From IMG/VR virus record IMGVR_UViG_3300025141_000754, positions 1 to 23,839 of that record: DNA of 23,839 nucleotides. One strand, written 5' to 3'. The notes under the pieces are model-generated. The model worked only from the letters and a program-made list of their open reading frames with translations. It searched no databases and had not been told where the DNA came from. Origin of the DNA: a virus. Below are positions 3,437 to 23,471 of the stretch, piece by piece (the stretch's first letter is position 1; each line of letters begins with the position of its first letter). The translations under genes and the position numbers were made by a program.

Positions 3437-4462
3437 TTAAGAATTAAACATATCTTCCAGCAAACTAGCCGCATCATCGACGTGACCTGATTGCCTTAGA
3501 CGTTTCATTTTGGTAGTACGTTTCTGTTTTCCTGCATCAGCCTTGGTTCTTGGTGAACCTGCGCGAATTACCCGTGGCTTGTTTTTCACCTTTTTCTGAA
3601 CTACATCAGGTGAAGAAGCCTTATCGAACTTCATGGCTTTATATAAAGTCATTAAAGACCTATGGTCTAACAAAGAACCAATCTCTTCAGATGTGTATCC
3701 TTGCGATAAAGCGTATGATTTAATTTCGCTACCTAGTTTCTGACGTGATTCAGCCTCTCCCCATTCAGGAAGTGCGCCGACCAATTTCCCGTGTTCTTCT
3801 TGTAGAACACGTTGATGGGTTCTTTGCGACTCCTGTTGATAGGCTTCGTGAGCTTGCTGCTGTTGGTATTGAACTTGCCTAACCCTTTCTTGCGTTTCCC
3901 GCAACTCATCCCTTTTAGTTATATATTCAAGCGGATTTTCGTTCTTTAAGGATTCCCAATCTACGGTGGCAAATTGGTCCAAAGCGCCCATAGAGTTTTC
4001 AACCACGTTTTGCAGGGCATTAACGTATTGCTGTCGTTCTGTCTGAATCTGCTGAACCTCTGTGCTCCATTGATTATGGTGTGCTTCGATATTCCGCCGT
4101 TGTTCGGACAGTTCTTGTGTTTTACGAGTATAATCTGAGTGCCGGGAATATCCCTTCAGAAGTTCGTCAAGGGGTATTGTATGCTCTTCACCATTTATGG
4201 TAACAGCATATAAGTCCTCTCCTTCTTCTGCCCGGTTATCAGTTTCTTCGGAGTCTTCTTCAGACTCTTCAGATTCCTCTTCCAATGATTCGTCTTCCTC
4301 TACAGGTTGAGACTCTTCTTCTTCCGCAGGTTCGGCCTCCTCAGTTTCCGGTGTTTCCCCTTCGGGTTCCGTCATTTTGAGTAGTGCCTCTTGTGCTTCC
4401 CATAAACTACCGGGTTGCGTTTGTTCTTCATGTGCTTGCGGGGCTTCTTGCTTTTCCGCCAT
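3437..4462 (-). CDS. Capsid scaffolding protein
   Basis: A 341-aa hydrophilic protein. Residues about 30-80 are strongly acidic, with runs of Glu, Ser and Asp. Residues about 85-115 (TINGEEHTIPLDELLKGY, then SRHSDYTRKTQEL) give the helix often seen in phage scaffolds. A long Gln/Glu-rich coiled coil runs to about 215, and the C-terminus is basic (KKVKNKPRVIRAG, KQKRTTKMKRLRQ), the usual capsid-binding end of a scaffold. It lies between portal and major capsid genes. AGGA is 8-9 nt before the ATG. No protease domain is seen, so cleavage would need another protein. Confidence 0.8.
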   Translation of the reverse strand: MAEKQEAPQAHEEQTQPGSLWEAQEALLKMTEPEGETPETEEAEPAEEEESQPVEEDESLEEESEESEEDSEETDNRAEEGEDLYAVTINGEEHTIPLDELLKGYSRHSDYTRKTQELSEQRRNIEAHHNQWSTEVQQIQTERQQYVNALQNVVENSMGALDQFATVDWESLKNENPLEYITKRDELRETQERVRQVQYQQQQAHEAYQQESQRTHQRVLQEEHGKLVGALPEWGEAESRQKLGSEIKSYALSQGYTSEEIGSLLDHRSLMTLYKAMKFDKASSPDVVQKKVKNKPRVIRAGSPRTKADAGKQKRTTKMKRLRQSGHVDDAASLLEDMFNS

Positions 4463-10879: not shown

Positions 10880-11986
10880 ATGTTTAATCAAATAGTAACA
10901 TCTGGAGTTATCAACCCTTCCATAGTTAGCAACAATAGACAGACCGCGCCATTGTTTTATGGTCCTGTTACCGCGCTAGATAATCCTAGCAACATAACAC
11001 AATCATTAGAACAAGCCGGTCTAACTTTTACCTATGCAACAGAACCGTTATACAACGAACATCTGGAAAAGATCGATAGATCACAAAAGTTAATAACTAT
11101 CGATAGCAATGGTAATAAGTCTACTAATGTCGATATGCTTTATAAGGATCATAAAGACCGCGAACAATGGAATGAAGATCACCCTGGATACACTCCAAAA
11201 GACTTAATTCGGCGCGAGGCAAAAGATAACTTTCTCAACATAGTTGGAAAGGATTATAAATTGCATCAACCCGAACAAGTTTATAAGGCTTACCTGGAGT
11301 TAGCTAATTACCTAGACTTACAGATACATATGGCTGGCGTTATTAATAACGGTCATTCTATCTGGGCACGGGTCAAACTGGATAAAGATATTGAAGTTAA
11401 AGATGCTAAAATTGCTCAATACATTACCATTATGACTGGCGTTAGCAAGTCTACAAAAGCGGGAGAAAGTCCAGAAGATGTAGCTTGTTTTAATCAATGG
11501 AATTTACTGCTAGGTAAAACAGAATGGTATTTAGGTAATGTTTCACATAGGGGTTTATTTAATCACGAACTATTCGCTCAGACTATTGCGAAGCGTTTGA
11601 ATTATGACCAAAAGGCGCGGGAACTAACCGCGCTAATTGAAACCCCTTGCAACACTTATGAGAAACATAACTATTTTAAAAATGTTCTATTCGCTGATTT
11701 TGCTAGTAAGGAAAAGATAGCAAAAAATACGCAAAAGCTAGAACGCTATATCGAGATAGCTAACTCTAAACCTTGCAAGGTTGACGCCGAAGCTAGGCAC
11801 AACACTTGGTATGGATCTTTTATGGATGCTACCTGGATTGCGGATAGATTCTCATCACGCGATATGTCGGGTTTAGGTTCTGGGCTTGCAAGTTCTAATC
11901 TTACGGGTCGCATAGGTAAGACTAAATCAAAAGCATACTCCCTGGCGTTAGGTCAGCCGGAAGTTTTACAGGCGTTAGCCGCATGA
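10880..11986 (+). CDS. DUF932-like phage/plasmid protein
   Basis: A 368-aa soluble protein. Several blocks recall the DUF932 family of phage and plasmid proteins: LFYGPVTALDNPSNITQSLE then AGLTFTYATEPLY near the N-terminus, FLNIVGKDYKLHQPEQVYKA in the middle, IWARVKLDKDIEVKD, and the IMTGVSKS to NQWNLLLGKTEW stretch. The family has no settled biochemical role. The ATG at 10880 has AAAAGGA 9-10 nt upstream; an in-frame ATG at 10814 would read through the structured leader and is less likely. The next small gene overlaps the stop as ATGA. The family call is by eye; codon use with GGCGCG words differs from neighbours. Confidence 0.55.
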   Translation: MFNQIVTSGVINPSIVSNNRQTAPLFYGPVTALDNPSNITQSLEQAGLTFTYATEPLYNEHLEKIDRSQKLITIDSNGNKSTNVDMLYKDHKDREQWNEDHPGYTPKDLIRREAKDNFLNIVGKDYKLHQPEQVYKAYLELANYLDLQIHMAGVINNGHSIWARVKLDKDIEVKDAKIAQYITIMTGVSKSTKAGESPEDVACFNQWNLLLGKTEWYLGNVSHRGLFNHELFAQTIAKRLNYDQKARELTALIETPCNTYEKHNYFKNVLFADFASKEKIAKNTQKLERYIEIANSKPCKVDAEARHNTWYGSFMDATWIADRFSSRDMSGLGSGLASSNLTGRIGKTKSKAYSLALGQPEVLQALAA

Positions 11987-12126
11987 TTATCAAACAAGAT
12001 ATTATTGGTTTGAAAAAGTTCACAATGGCTGATTATTTTCCAGACTTTATGATCGGTTTTCTTTTAACGCTCAACATAATCCAATTAGTTGGCTGGCTAT
12101 ATTTCCTGGTTAGCCTATGCGGATAA
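11983..12126 (+). CDS. 47-aa single-pass membrane protein, unknown
   Basis: A 47-residue protein that starts MIIKQDIIGLKKFTMADYF, followed by one hydrophobic helix of about 25 residues (FMIGFLLTLNIIQLVGWLYF) ending in LVSLCG. Its ATG overlaps the stop of the DUF932-like gene (ATGA), so it is probably translated by coupling. The charge layout predicts an N-terminus in the cytoplasm. No family is recognised. It could be a small toxin, a holin-like protein or a membrane anchor. Confidence 0.55.
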   Translation: MIIKQDIIGLKKFTMADYFPDFMIGFLLTLNIIQLVGWLYFLVSLCG

Positions 12127-12167
12127 TTATTATTATCCTTTTATTACTTTTAATCCTTTTCCTATAA
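12117..12167 (+). CDS. 16-aa hydrophobic micropeptide A
   Basis: A micro-ORF encoding MRIIIIILLLLLILFL, overlapping the end of the 47-aa membrane gene by 10 nt and ending 10 nt before a terminator. The Shine-Dalgarno is weak. The T-rich sequence could give such a run by chance. The main support is a second 16-aa peptide of very similar form at 21800 (MRITIIVIMLGLVILL), also overlapping its neighbour. Confidence 0.35.
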   Translation: MRIIIIILLLLLILFL

Positions 12168-12177
12168 CCTCCAATTG

Positions 12178-12205
12178 GCGCCCCTTCACTGGGGCGCATT
12201 TTTTT
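12178..12205 (+). terminator. Rho-independent terminator
   Basis: A GCGCCCC/GGGGCGC 7-bp stem, 6-nt loop, then A and seven T. Ends the DUF932-like cassette. Confidence 0.85.
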
Positions 12206-12216
12206 AAGGTACTACT

Positions 12217-12456
12217 ATGACAACTGAAGAAATAGCAGTTATTCACACGCTCTCACTACTGCGTCAATATTGCGTAAAAGAGCAAACAGCAGTTGACCAA
12301 CTAAGCAAAAATTTGCTTAAAGAATACGAGCACCCTAAAAACATGAAAAAAGATATTAGGACTGACTACGATAATTATGAGGGAATGTCGACAGCATATT
12401 TTGACGTTACCCAAAAAATTGAGTCTTTAATTATTACAGCGGTCACAGATGAATAA
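12217..12456 (+). CDS. 79-aa helical acidic protein, unknown
   Basis: A 79-aa protein, all helical by look (EEIAVIHTLSLLRQYCVKEQ, then TAVDQLSKNLLKEYEHPKNM), with no membrane segment and one cysteine. AAGG is about 8 nt before the ATG. It is a single gene held between two terminators (12178-12205 and 12466-12492), so it either depends on read-through or has a promoter inside the first terminator region. No family is recognised. Confidence 0.6.
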   Translation: MTTEEIAVIHTLSLLRQYCVKEQTAVDQLSKNLLKEYEHPKNMKKDIRTDYDNYEGMSTAYFDVTQKIESLIITAVTDE

Positions 12457-12465
12457 TTAAAAATG

Positions 12466-12492
12466 AGCGCTCCAAAAGGGGCGCTTTTTTTT
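12466..12492 (+). terminator. Rho-independent terminator
   Basis: An 8-bp stem AGCGCTCC/GGGGCGCT with one wobble, loop AAAA, then eight T. Its GGGGCGC arm is shared with the terminator at 12178. Confidence 0.85.
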
Positions 12493-20501: not shown

Positions 20502-20866
20502 TGTCTGCGGATGAGATACAATTAGATGAATCGTGGGTACAGGACTACAATGATGCAATGCAAGCCCTTAACTACAATGAAGGGTTAATTCAACAGCGAC
20601 AAGAGGAACGCAAAATGCCTTATGAGCAGAAGGACAATTCACTTAATTTGTTTGTGAATAAGTTTAAGAAGGACGGTGGAAGGGAGCCAGACTTTACTGG
20701 TGACGCTTTGGTAGATGGGAGAGAGTGGAAGGCTTCAGCGTGGAAGAACAAGGACAAGAATGGAAACACCTATCTTGGTATCCAGTTCAGACCGCCACAA
20801 GACTCTGCTAAACGATTCCCACAGGCACAAAAGGCATCGGGTTCAGACCCATTCGAGATGGACTGA
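20501..20866 (+). CDS. DUF736-like protein
   Basis: A 121-aa protein starting MSADEIQLDESWVQDYNDAM. The C-terminal half, DNSLNLFVNKFKKDGGREPD then FTGDALVDGREWKASAWKNK, with DKNGNTYLGIQFRPP, closely follows the DUF736 pattern (gly-lys strand, DF/YTG, WxAW-like, KxGxxYLxIxF). DUF736 proteins occur in plasmids and phages, and a single-stranded DNA role has been suggested but not settled. AGGGG is 7-8 nt before the ATG. It overlaps the exonuclease gene by one base. Confidence 0.65.
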   Translation: MSADEIQLDESWVQDYNDAMQALNYNEGLIQQRQEERKMPYEQKDNSLNLFVNKFKKDGGREPDFTGDALVDGREWKASAWKNKDKNGNTYLGIQFRPPQDSAKRFPQAQKASGSDPFEMD

Positions 20867-21618
20867 TGCTTTTAGAGTATCACGATGGACAAGATGTAGA
20901 ACTGGAATTCAACGAGAAGAAGCACTACTATTCCGTTAATGGGGAGTATGCTCCCTCAGTTACTACGATCCTAGACTCCATAGCTAAACCCGCTTTAATA
21001 CCGTGGGCAGCTAATGAAGGAGCCAAGTGGTTCCTAGAACATTATGGACTCTTCAGTCAGGCTGAAATATCCTCAGAGGACATGGCTAAGGGGATACGAG
21101 GGGCGTACAGGAAATCCTCCGGCTCTGCCCTCAACATAGGCATGGAAGTTCATAAGTGGTGCGAGGAAGCGATCCTGTGGAAGTTGGGAAAGGGGGAAGC
21201 GCCTCTAACTCCGGAACGAACTGAGTCTAAGAACGCTATCAATGCGTTCAGAGAGTGGACTAAGGCCAATGATGTAGAGTGGCTCACCGTGGAAGAGAAG
21301 GTATATCACAGAGGTCATAAGTTTGCAGGTACTGTAGATGCTACAGCCATAGTAAACGATGATTACTGCGTAATTGATTTCAAGACTTCTGGTGCGATCT
21401 ACTCAGCCTATTACCTTCAGTGTGCTGCTTACGCTAAAGCTATAGAGGACATGAGAGGCAAGGAAGTAGACAAGGCGTATGTCTTGAGGTTCGATAAAAA
21501 GACAGGGGAGTTTGAAGCTGGCTCATCTGTGGAGATAATGGATAACTTCATAGCCTTCTTGGGGTTCTTAGAGGGGTACAGTAGGCTTAGAACCCTAGAG
21601 AATAGGAAGGGTAAGTGA
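20866..21618 (+). CDS. RecB/Cas4-like PD-(D/E)XK exonuclease
   Basis: A 250-aa nuclease. Motifs are NIGMEVHKWCEEA (helix with His), HKFAGTVDATAIVNDDYCVI then DFKTSGAIYSAYYLQCAAYA: catalytic Asp in GTVD, then the DFK pair, and the QxxxY helix of RecB/Cas4/lambda-exonuclease-type proteins. Such phage nucleases resect DNA ends for recombination and concatemer processing. TGATG links it to the DUF736-like gene and GTGA links it to the next. No Cys cluster for an Fe-S centre is apparent, unlike Cas4. Confidence 0.75.
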   Translation: MLLEYHDGQDVELEFNEKKHYYSVNGEYAPSVTTILDSIAKPALIPWAANEGAKWFLEHYGLFSQAEISSEDMAKGIRGAYRKSSGSALNIGMEVHKWCEEAILWKLGKGEAPLTPERTESKNAINAFREWTKANDVEWLTVEEKVYHRGHKFAGTVDATAIVNDDYCVIDFKTSGAIYSAYYLQCAAYAKAIEDMRGKEVDKAYVLRFDKKTGEFEAGSSVEIMDNFIAFLGFLEGYSRLRTLENRKGK

Positions 21619-21803
21619 GCCATACGCTCGTAACCGTCAAGTCGGTAGATGACTGCCCGTTCGGTATTACTTATAACGATGGGGACACTCATTTGCATAT
21701 GGATGTGCCGAATAGAAGCCTAGACATCTACGATGTAGATATAATAATTGAGTGGCTAATAGCCTTTAGGAGAGATATGGTAAAAGCGAGGGATGGGGAA
21801 TGA
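21615..21803 (+). CDS. 62-aa acidic protein with GTG start, unknown
   Basis: A 62-aa protein that opens SHTLVTVKSVDDCPFGITYN and ends with a helix (DVDIIIEWLIAFRRDMVKAR). The start GTG at 21615 overlaps the exonuclease stop (GTGA), with AGGAAGGG upstream. The stop overlaps the start of the 16-aa peptide (ATGA). No family is recognised. Confidence 0.55.
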   Translation: MSHTLVTVKSVDDCPFGITYNDGDTHLHMDVPNRSLDIYDVDIIIEWLIAFRRDMVKARDGE

Positions 21804-21850
21804 GAATAACAATCATTGTGATTATGCTGGGCTTAGTAATCCTTTTATGA
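21800..21850 (+). CDS. 16-aa hydrophobic micropeptide B
   Basis: A 16-codon ORF encoding MRITIIVIMLGLVILL. GAGGGATGGGG directly upstream is a strong ribosome site. Both ends overlap neighbours as ATGA: the 62-aa gene before and the metallophosphoesterase ATG after, so it exactly fills the gap. It resembles micropeptide A at 12117 in length and in its MRI start. The peptide could insert in the membrane. No annotated family is known to this reader. Confidence 0.55.
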   Translation: MRITIIVIMLGLVILL

Positions 21851-22599
21851 ACCTACTCATCATAGGTGATCCTCACGCTCATCCTGACTACGATAACAAG
21901 AGGTTTACTGCTCTTGGTAAGTACATAGCCAAGGAGAAACCAGCCGTTATTGTATGCATTGGAGACATGGCAGATATGCCAAGCCTGTCATCTTACGACA
22001 GAGGAACGAAGGGATTTGAAGGTAAGAGGTACAGCAAGGATATTAGCGCTGTGCTGGATGCCCAAGATAAACTACTAACCCCTATCTATAAGGCCAGAGG
22101 CTATAATCCAGTTCTACATATGTGTGTAGGCAACCATGAGGATAGGATAACGAGGGTAGTGAACGCCCAGCCAGAACTGGAGGACGCGATAGGGTTATTT
22201 GACCTTGAGTATGAGGCACACGGGTGGAAGGTGACCCCCTTCAAGAAATCCATCACAATAAAAGGTATAGCATTTAGCCATTACTTCACTGCTGGAATAT
22301 CAGGTAGGGCGATAAGTTCCACGCATATTGGACACGCAATGGTTACAAAACTACACTGCTCTGCTGTGCAAGGACACTCACATTTATACAACCATGCAGA
22401 ACAGACTAGACCAGATGGTCAGAAGATATTTGGTCTATCTGTAGGATGCTACTCTCACCCTGACTACACTGAATCTTGGTGTCAGGATACTGAGTACCAG
22501 TGGTGGAGAGGAGTCATTATGTTGGAAGGGTTAGACGGGGAGGGGTATTACAATGGGATAAGGGCTGTGACTCAGAGGAGTATTCTAACTAAGTCCTAG
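21847..22599 (+). CDS. Calcineurin-like metallophosphoesterase
   Basis: A 250-aa enzyme starting MNLLIIGDPHAHPDYDNKRF. Metal-site motifs follow the family order: D-P-H at residues 8-10, VCIGDMAD (about 36-43), CVGNHEDR, FSHYF, and AVQGHSHLYNH near the end. Such phage enzymes hydrolyse phosphomonoesters or diesters, sometimes DNA or RNA ends; the substrate is not clear here. The start at 21847 follows from the stop-start overlap with the 16-aa gene; an in-frame ATG at 21793 would overlap two genes. It is the last gene of the rightward operon. Confidence 0.75.
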   Translation: MNLLIIGDPHAHPDYDNKRFTALGKYIAKEKPAVIVCIGDMADMPSLSSYDRGTKGFEGKRYSKDISAVLDAQDKLLTPIYKARGYNPVLHMCVGNHEDRITRVVNAQPELEDAIGLFDLEYEAHGWKVTPFKKSITIKGIAFSHYFTAGISGRAISSTHIGHAMVTKLHCSAVQGHSHLYNHAEQTRPDGQKIFGLSVGCYSHPDYTESWCQDTEYQWWRGVIMLEGLDGEGYYNGIRAVTQRSILTKS

Positions 22600-22925
22600 A
22601 GGTGCTTTATACTTGTTACACACCCTGCGGGAAAGCAGGTAACTGAGTACCCTATAGGCTTTTCTTTCTTCTTGTGTTCTTCAAGGGCATCATCAAAGTC
22701 TAGTGTGTTGCAAATCTTCAATACTTTTTCATCTTGGTACTCCAGCCAGCCGACAGAATAGAAGGTAGGTAGTTCGCAGTCCTCTGCTACCACCCATCCA
22801 TCATCCGATATTATATCAACCCATTCTATAAGAATAAGTTCTTTTGCTTTTTCTTTCGCTCCAGTGGGCCGGGGAGTATCCACCCCAGTACCATCGGTGC
22901 TACAAAGATTAAGATTAGTAACCAT
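22596..22925 (-). CDS. 109-aa small conserved phage protein, unknown
   Basis: A 109-aa acidic soluble protein. The segment KELILIEWVDIISDDGWVVA then ELPTFYSVGWLEYQDEKVLK resembles a common small phage protein of unknown role (IxWxDxxSDDGW, VGWL), likely a beta-barrel. GGAG is 8 nt before the ATG at 22925. The first 100 nt overlap the end of the lipoprotein-like gene in another frame. Its stop shares CTAG with the stop of the metallophosphoesterase gene on the other strand. Confidence 0.6.
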   Translation of the reverse strand: MVTNLNLCSTDGTGVDTPRPTGAKEKAKELILIEWVDIISDDGWVVAEDCELPTFYSVGWLEYQDEKVLKICNTLDFDDALEEHKKKEKPIGYSVTCFPAGCVTSIKHL

Positions 22926-23278
22926 CCGCCCATCTCCACAAGTGAGCCAAGTAAACTCCAGAAGTTGTCAGGAGCGCAGCTATTCATATCTGAACTTGAT
23001 GTTGACCCAACCATCACTTCCGTTGCAACGTCCGCCACAGCCGCAGTCGTCAGTCCCCCAACAACCAGTCCGGCAGTCCCGGACACTGCGTTCCCCACAA
23101 GAGCACCTGTCGTCCCCAGACTGCTGACTATCGCTGCTTTCTTGAGTGTCGTACATCCTACTGTACAGGCACATCCGGCGATGACCACCAGCCAGTAACC
23201 CAACCGACTACGGCTACTACTACTATGATGCCTACGGCTGCCCAAAATCTTTTCTTTCCAGCGCTTAATGCTTTCCAT
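22826..23278 (-). CDS. Lipoprotein-like membrane protein, possible lysis-region gene
   Basis: A 150-aa frame. An N-terminal hydrophobic stretch GYWLVVIAGCACTVGCTTLK has lipobox-like IAGC. Then comes a Gly/Ala-rich hydrophobic section (SSLGTTGALVGNAVSGTAGL, then VVGGLTTAAVADVA) and a C-terminal membrane helix (GGWLLILIFVAPMVLGWILP) with basic tail. The start is uncertain: ATG at 23278, TTG at 23203 or GTG at 23188. The first part overlaps a 42-aa gene in another frame, as Rz/Rz1 pairs do. It could be a holin, spanin or envelope protein; none is proved. Confidence 0.5.
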   Translation of the reverse strand: MESIKRWKEKILGSRRHHSSSSRSRLGYWLVVIAGCACTVGCTTLKKAAIVSSLGTTGALVGNAVSGTAGLVVGGLTTAAVADVATEVMVGSTSSSDMNSCAPDNFWSLLGSLVEMGGWLLILIFVAPMVLGWILPGPLERKKKQKNLFL

Positions 23279-23286
23279 TTTTCCAT
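23158..23286 (-). CDS. 42-aa single-pass membrane peptide
   Basis: A 42-aa protein starting MEKWKALSAGKKRFWAAVGI, with a membrane helix (VGIIVVVAVVGWVTGWW) and the polar end SSPDVPVQ. GGAG is 5 nt before the ATG, a better ribosome site than that of the overlapping 150-aa frame. It begins 2 nt after the DUF6356-like stop. A basic N-terminus and one helix suit a small membrane or lysis factor. Its frame was found by hand, being short. Confidence 0.55.
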   Translation of the reverse strand: MEKWKALSAGKKRFWAAVGIIVVVAVVGWVTGWWSSPDVPVQ

Positions 23287-23288
23287 GT

Positions 23289-23471
23289 TCACTCCCCGTG
23301 TAAGTGTTTATGTAGTTTCTTTATTCCATCAGATGTGGTGGACGAAAACGTAAAGGGCAACATTCCATGTACCAAAGCAGTCAACGATAAAAGAAACAAT
23401 TTCAAAGACATTCTCCATGCGAATTTCCCGTGGCTCCACCAAGTCATCTCTACATCATATAAATGATTCAT
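23289..23471 (-). CDS. DUF6356-like small membrane protein
   Basis: A 60-aa protein starting MNHLYDVEMTWWSHGKFAWR, then SLKLFLLSLTALVHGMLPFT and TSDGIKKLHKHLHGE. The layout (NHL, MTYW-like motif, one hydrophobic helix, HGxxPF, then IKxL) is that of the DUF6356 family of small phage and bacterial membrane proteins of unknown role. The ATG at 23471 overlaps the upstream stop (ATGA), and AAAGG is close by, so this short start is preferred over the longer frame to 23633. Confidence 0.6.
   Translation of the reverse strand: MNHLYDVEMTWWSHGKFAWRMSLKLFLLSLTALVHGMLPFTFSSTTSDGIKKLHKHLHGE

Follow-up and report, generated by a model that had tools for sequence, protein, structure and literature searches.

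Hydrophobic 16-residue micro-ORFs at two operon positions of related deep-sea phages as candidate membrane micropeptides

Introduction

Small membrane proteins of phages and bacteria are mostly 25–60 aa long, single-helix products of small ORFs that are missed in annotation, and operon leader peptides of the ilvL and ivbL type are short ORFs rich in branched-chain codons. Still closer to the locus described here are the Ibs peptides (IbsA-E), type I toxins of Escherichia coli which are very short (19 aa), nearly entirely hydrophobic, form a single helix and whose genes pair with antisense Sib RNA. IbsC is toxic even as a 15-aa truncation in which 10 residues are hydrophobic (PMC8309996), and frameshifted variants of it remain toxic as well (PMC7192591). 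Moreover, Arp1-3, hydrophobic 22–25-mers from random libraries, insert in the membrane and lower the membrane potential of E. coli (PMC6550523).

Here, we analysed a stretch of 23,839 nt of viral DNA (IMG/VR record IMGVR_UViG_3300025141_000754, positions 1 to 23,839), referred to as the window. It represents a marine, podovirus-like phage, whose portal shares about 40% identity with the portals of Pseudomonas phage tf and of marine phages, and also encodes a class II ribonucleotide reductase, a DnaB-like helicase, an exonuclease and an SSB; megablast against cultured phages gave no DNA-level match. A sequence-only reading of the window had pointed to two 16-residue hydrophobic micro-ORFs, proposed to be membrane peptides that tune neighbours, act as small toxins or serve as coupling devices. 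One lies just after a DUF932 gene (slot 1), the other between a Cas4-like exonuclease and a metallophosphoesterase, MPE (slot 2; Table 1). Genes this short fall below the usual length limits of annotation and proteomics.

Table 1. Coordinates of the features in both slots of the window.
Feature	Position	Strand	Remark
DUF932 gene (PF06067, PHROG 1221)	10880-11986	+	5' anchor of slot 1
47-aa small membrane ORF	11983-12126	+	between DUF932 and slot-1 micro-ORF
Slot-1 micro-ORF, MRIIIIILLLLLILFL followed by stop	12117-12167	+	10-nt overlap with the end of the 47-aa ORF
CCTCC motif	12168-12172	+	between slot-1 micro-ORF and terminator
Rho-independent terminator	12178-12204	+	directly after slot-1 micro-ORF
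Exonuclease (PHROG 298), Cas4-like	20866-21618	+	5' border of slot 2
62-aa ORF, GTG start	21615-21803	+	stop overlaps the slot-2 micro-ORF start
Slot-2 Shine-Dalgarno region, GAGGGATGGGG	21788-21798	+	anti-SD duplex of −8.7 kcal/mol
Slot-2 micro-ORF, MRITIIVIMLGLVILL followed by stop	21800-21850	+	ATGA overlap at each end
Metallophosphoesterase, MPE (PF00149, PHROG 221)	21847-22599	+	3' border of slot 2

Results

In slot 2, exonuclease, 62-aa ORF, micro-ORF and MPE follow each other with a 4-nt overlap at every junction. The micro-ORF is joined by ATGA at both ends, as the sequence-only reading had described: its ATG at 21800 overlaps the TGA of the 62-aa ORF (21801–21803), which has no Pfam or PHROG match, and its own TGA (21848–21850) overlaps the ATG of the MPE (21847–21849). 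The strong ribosome site noticed there consists of GAGGG (21788–21792) and GGGG (21795–21798) and pairs strongly with the 16S anti-SD sequence (−8.7 kcal/mol), a value of −7 being attained by just 7.6% of the ATGs in the window. The second 16-aa ORF, running from the ATG at 12117 to the TAA at 12167, was likewise found to overlap the stop of the 47-aa gene, and its ribosome site is indeed weak (−2.7 vs. a background mean of −2.5).

The identical length of the pair had been taken to make chance less likely, and our data strongly support a non-chance origin: the window contains two ATG-initiated ORFs of 14–18 aa with a GRAVY of at least 2.7, and 100 dinucleotide-preserving shuffles contained none. 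A strict scan with a degenerate DNA pattern (M-R-[IV]-...-16 aa-stop) matched 14 stretches in IMG/VR, of which 12 belong to the phage group of the window and lie at a gene's end; L098 and L099, which carry the same sequence, matched inside an 805-aa ORF, i.e., by chance. Among bacterial and archaeal genomes (257 Gb), the same pattern gave three matches, which run out of frame through long ORFs or have no proper stop and were discarded as chance, as were the 16-aa pattern matches in L082 and L144–L146, out of frame within longer genes. With a relaxed pattern, about 17 further contigs among the matches listed proved to be chance hits of the same out-of-frame kind, and every ORF that a free-length pattern found outside the group, again among the matches listed, sat out of frame inside a longer gene.

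A further survey, independent of length or sequence pattern, covered stop-coupled ATG micro-ORFs of 8–40 aa, with a GRAVY of at least 2.3 defining the hydrophobic ones. In 644 kb of related contigs, it returned about 360 coupled micro-ORFs of broadly spread lengths, while the hydrophobic ones had 11 aa (2), 16 aa (11), 17 aa (2) or 18 aa (3), so that 16 hydrophobic ORFs fell between 14 and 20 aa. In contrast, control viral sequence (882 kb) yielded 352 coupled micro-ORFs and no hydrophobic one of 14–20 aa, the single hydrophobic representative being 8 aa long. Fisher's test gives P=1.5e-5 by distinct peptide, which overstates independence because the 17 peptides described below represent about 11 lineages (10–11 independent); by lineage, P is estimated to be nearer 0.001. 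Considering shuffles, control contigs and genome scan, a chance origin was rejected: the pair of micro-ORFs is not due to chance.

The sequence-only reading led one to expect the same micro-ORF at the same place in related phages, and related deep-sea phage contigs in fact carry a hydrophobic peptide of 16–18 aa in the same two slots. All relatives compared are metagenome contigs. Altogether, 17 distinct peptides occupy the two slots (12 of 16 aa, two of 17 aa and three of 18 aa), and the four contigs spanning both slots (the window, L101, L092 and L270) have one peptide in each. The peptide sequences are too simple to establish common ancestry across lineages or slots.

For slot 2, the exonuclease–MPE interval of related contigs was inspected. 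The MPE relatives L002–L004 and L037 hold the micro-ORF in the same place, with the peptides MRIVIIVIMLGLVILL (L002), MRITIIVIMLGLVILL and MRIAIIVIMLGMIVLL (L037); in L037, the MPE starts with GTG, which still overlaps the micro-ORF stop (GTGA). The census further comprises MQVVIVVVLLLVIVIL (L006/L009/L010), MKVVLVLLLLSLVILM (L013, L101), MKIVLVLLLLSLVLLA (L015/L018, contig of L092), MQIAIAISLLVFLLIL (L034), MTLLVAGGIIFLLILLF (L012/L014) and MDALSLVLLVMAMFVFLG (L024). Surrounding small genes are reshuffled between the phages, and the peptide stays, starting at the stop of whichever gene precedes it. Most ribosome sites of this slot are strong (−6.4 to −9.3 kcal/mol), with L084 (−3.1) and L270 (0.1) as exceptions.

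Region 21793–21846 could alternatively be an N-terminal extension of the MPE (MGNENNNHCDYAGLSNPF-) and the micro-ORF its out-of-frame shadow, since the MPE frame is also open upstream, up to a possible start at ATG 21793 (MGNENNNHCDYAGLSNPF-MNLL) located 7 nt upstream of the micro-ORF start; the extension frame is open in the window, L002–L004 and L037. However, the start codon of most MPE relatives corresponds to 21847, and slot 1, without an MPE, is beyond the reach of this explanation. Position 2 of the micro-frame, which corresponds to position 3 of the MPE frame, is nearly invariant (set A: 7/1/7), the opposite of what MPE coding would produce. Because the conserved position is the third one of the MPE frame, an extension cannot explain the conservation of slot 2, and we regard it as highly improbable.

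For slot 1, the sequence 3' of DUF932 relatives was read without any peptide pattern. The peptide is MRVIIIILLLLLILFL in L094/L096, MQLMLIIAMLCLIFFMI in L103, MKIAIIFFLLLLFILLLI in L110/L111 and MAWLITGLAILMIILFFT in L270, where the gene upstream is also DUF932. In L092/L093/L100 (MRIVVVILLLFLILLL) and L101 (MRVVVVVLLLLLIMLL), the micro-ORF is ATGA-coupled straight to DUF932. In L091/L097, MRVTIIIVLLLLILFF follows another small gene, an unrelated ORF replacing the 47-aa gene, so that the peptide was kept while its neighbour was exchanged. Across the copies, slot-1 ribosome sites are weak (−0.4 to −4.0) and none is recognisable, which fits with reinitiation after the upstream stop. Terminator-like hairpins are visible after most of the copies.

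Other contigs contain longer ORFs here: single-helix ORFs of 32 aa (L106) and 35 aa (L112) occupy the position of the 16-aa ORF, and DUF932 is followed by a single-helix ORF of 24 aa with TTG start and TTGA overlap in L272 (MRSDDGLILIIILVIIIILFHGLT) and of 40 aa with GTG start in L275. The TTG or GTG starts of some of these substitutes overlap the DUF932 stop. In L104/L105, no hydrophobic ORF was found after DUF932. As ORFs of 24–40 aa occur in the same place, a small membrane peptide after DUF932 emerges as a recurrent theme, with 16 aa as the commonest form, and DUF932 might act jointly with a small membrane protein; our literature search on DUF932 function found nothing useful.

According to the sequence-only reading, loss of the frame in phages keeping the neighbour genes would speak against the micro-ORFs. 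The expectation of retention held only partly: where the context is kept, the frame is nearly always kept too, and the slot-2 peptide is present in all examined contigs whose exonuclease reaches at least 68% identity with that of the window, except L275 (L020). The slot-2 micro-ORF is absent from several MPE relatives (L007, L020/L275, L031) and mostly from contigs with divergent exonucleases, and in slot 1 a 1-nt deletion in L109 breaks the ORF that the near-identical L110/L111 keep. The frameshifted copy of L109 suggests that the slot-1 ORF may be dispensable, unless it reflects an assembly error.

Further candidates were seen outside these slots or farther from the window. In L277 (about 3988–4041, reverse complement), a coupled hydrophobic 17-aa ORF (MMEILIAVYVTYIILGL) sits in a third operon position, between a ribonucleotide reductase and an HNH gene, and L262 has a 15-aa ORF (MKVLVVVVIAYIIGF) 8 nt after a 292-codon gene. 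In six cultured phages, stretches with related MPE, DUF932 or portal genes held no such 16-aa ORF. One 16-aa match, MLLLPLLRKVLLFLLL in L303, was rejected, being charged and located 4 nt beyond the stop of a short frame, and DSL-LC04 (L305) has a possible 20-aa hydrophobic ORF (MNPMLIAAVAGAIIGILLTL). In a group of distant phages (L115–L132), DUF932 is followed by a possible tiny ORF (MEYVQFLLDIFILVAT, 16–23 codons) that was not counted, since an inverted repeat, GTCCAG...CTGGAC, overlaps with it and an RNA hairpin may be present instead of a peptide.

When pairs and sets belonging to one lineage are aligned, their nucleotide changes distribute over codon positions 1/2/3 of the micro-ORFs as 23/3/25 (P=3e-6 for the scarcity at position 2). 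Codon position 2 decides hydrophobicity. The peptide frame is thus under selection, and the changes within lineages include synonymous and I/V/L exchanges. Hydrophobic 14-residue core, length and polar residue 2 are conserved over about 11 lineages, which supports the earlier proposal of a membrane peptide. At the sequence level, conservation of frame, length and hydrophobicity as well as position and coupling are established.

The same counts bear on the proposed coupling device, i.e., a bridge that hands ribosomes from stop to start and whose product is irrelevant. Slot 2 of the window, with ATGA at both ends, and the GTGA kept at the 3' end in L037 would suit it, but L034 and L024 have, in slot 2, a downstream start codon that the micro-ORF does not overlap, and slot 1 leads into a terminator. 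Since no coupled gene lies downstream, pure coupling is excluded for the DUF932 slot. Moreover, a pure coupler would not keep codon position 2, and hydrophobicity and the 16-aa length are conserved as well. Coupling as the sole role was thus not upheld, and we consider it very unlikely for the two slots together.

Another option would be that −1 frameshifting of ribosomes gives some of the upstream protein molecules a hydrophobic C-terminal tail as a membrane anchor. Most of the ORFs do lie in the −1 frame of the preceding gene (offsets 1, −2, 7, 13); however, ATGA and TAATG junctions yield this phase regardless, and the ORF of L024 is in the other frame. By eye, no conserved slippery heptamer precedes the overlaps, and the constant distance is that from ATG to stop. 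As this 16-codon span, the M and polar residue 2 are kept, initiation at the ATG is indicated, and the tail has hardly any probability left.

The run of Ile/Leu codons in slot 1, ending 10 nt before the terminator, could also suggest an Ile/Leu/Val leader peptide with transcription attenuation at that terminator. Yet codon identity varies freely among the relatives (ATT/ATA/GTT, CTT/TTA/TTG), so that control codons are not conserved, and slot 2 of the window has no terminator. The interval between the terminator and the convergent gene of L093 showed no gene on the same strand. Rfam scans gave no leader family at gathering score, a Phe_leader with E=0.79 lying elsewhere (12411–12492). Attenuation is therefore most improbable as an explanation.

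As a separate observation, the RNA 3' of the slot-1 micro-ORF (window 12168–12204; L093 5089–5165; L101 1080–1156; also after DUF932 in L275 and L272) has a three-part layout in several relatives: a hairpin comes first, then ACCUCC/CUCCUCC, a conserved motif complementary to Shine-Dalgarno sequences, and lastly the terminator. The hairpin stem is GCAGAC/GUCUGC in L093 and GCAUAC/GUAUGC in L101, with one pair changed on both sides. This element is possibly a 3'UTR-derived small RNA; it matches no Rfam family at threshold and is weakly similar to sRNAs with a CUCCUCC motif. Convergent to the DUF932 operon lies a Gene product 88-like gene (PF17338; 12679–13272, minus strand), which adjoins DUF932 in most relatives. 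Elsewhere in the window, a membrane/lipoprotein-like ORF (22826–23292, minus strand) is overlapped by a second ORF in another frame (22980–23174), a possible lysis (spanin-like) arrangement.

Discussion

Judged from their conservation, both micro-ORFs appear to be genuine genes, among the shortest conserved phage genes. Their products follow a simple plan: M, usually R, K or Q, and then 14 hydrophobic residues, normally making up exactly 16 aa (16–18 aa and GRAVY 2.3–3.5 overall). The uncharged cores of 14–16 residues are predicted to be able to insert as a single span, with favourable summed residue insertion free energies of −2.7 to −7.8 kcal/mol. That the micro-ORFs represent translated and selected membrane micropeptides is the reading we favour, at a probability of roughly 0.8, and the slots probably hold tiny membrane-inserted effectors.

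We infer translation, membrane insertion and topology of the peptides as follows. Translation of each micropeptide would start by termination-reinitiation where the preceding gene stops, in slot 2 assisted by the good ribosome site, and the product could insert as one short helix in the inner membrane of the host, N-in, with residue 2, basic or polar, facing the cytoplasm. The DUF932 operon and the replication/recombination operon of the phage would contribute one copy each. Most likely, the peptides would act on the membrane as such or on one of the host's membrane proteins, much like the 19-aa Ibs peptides; the membrane potential could be lowered or adjusted, a superinfecting phage excluded or a membrane enzyme inhibited, the target being a guess. 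Such a membrane-modulating role is plausible because IbsC truncations and frameshifts stay toxic and selected hydrophobic 22–25-mers reduce the membrane potential, but as a specific assignment, drawn by analogy, it is tentative and somewhat short of an even chance. The roles as small toxins or in tuning neighbours, both put forward by the sequence-only reading, are possible for the putative peptides.

The likeness to Ibs raises the option of a type I toxin with an antisense RNA on the opposite strand. Size and composition resemble IbsC (19 aa; PMC8309996, PMC7192591), and the hydrophobic peptides of both slots, with one predicted helix and 16–18 aa, are slightly shorter than Ibs. However, the position is operonic and stop-coupled, Rfam scans found no Sib or other antitoxin RNA, and promoter-like sites on the opposite strand of the window are not clearly above those in shuffles. 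An Ibs-Sib-like system is consequently unlikely, albeit the least improbable of the alternatives considered.

Within the micropeptide reading, we tentatively propose, at only just under even odds, an undescribed family of 16-residue phage membrane effectors, two per genome and paired with DUF932, in which selection acts on helix length and hydrophobicity and hardly on sequence. That several phage lineages keep a 16-codon gene of constant length at two places in their operons would imply that a bare membrane helix is enough for selection to act on, and a 16-residue effector would, if true, come near the smallest membrane gene conceivable. The common but functionally uncharacterised domain DUF932 gains a recurrent candidate membrane-peptide partner. 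Moreover, a simple rule (stop-coupled, 14–20 aa, uncharged after residue 2) could serve to find such genes and gave 0 false positives in the controls used.

Compared with leader peptides of the ilvL and ivbL type, slot 1 is likewise a branched-chain-rich short ORF near a terminator, but its codons are not conserved, no attenuator was recognised in the scans and slot 2 has no terminator. With small membrane proteins, the phage peptides share the single helix and the origin from easily missed small ORFs, whereas their length is held at 16 aa and their sequence reduced to the helix. They resemble Arp1-3 in hydrophobicity (GRAVY of at least 2.5), although Arp1-3 are artificial, longer and have a hydrophilic C-terminus, while the phage peptides end in hydrophobic residues. 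The Ibs peptides are closest, being slightly longer and of the same nearly all-hydrophobic single-helix build, yet their genes pair with Sib RNA, whereas the phage peptides are operonic and stop-coupled, with no antitoxin RNA found. The phage peptides are most likely Ibs-like in their physical nature while standing outside the Ibs family.
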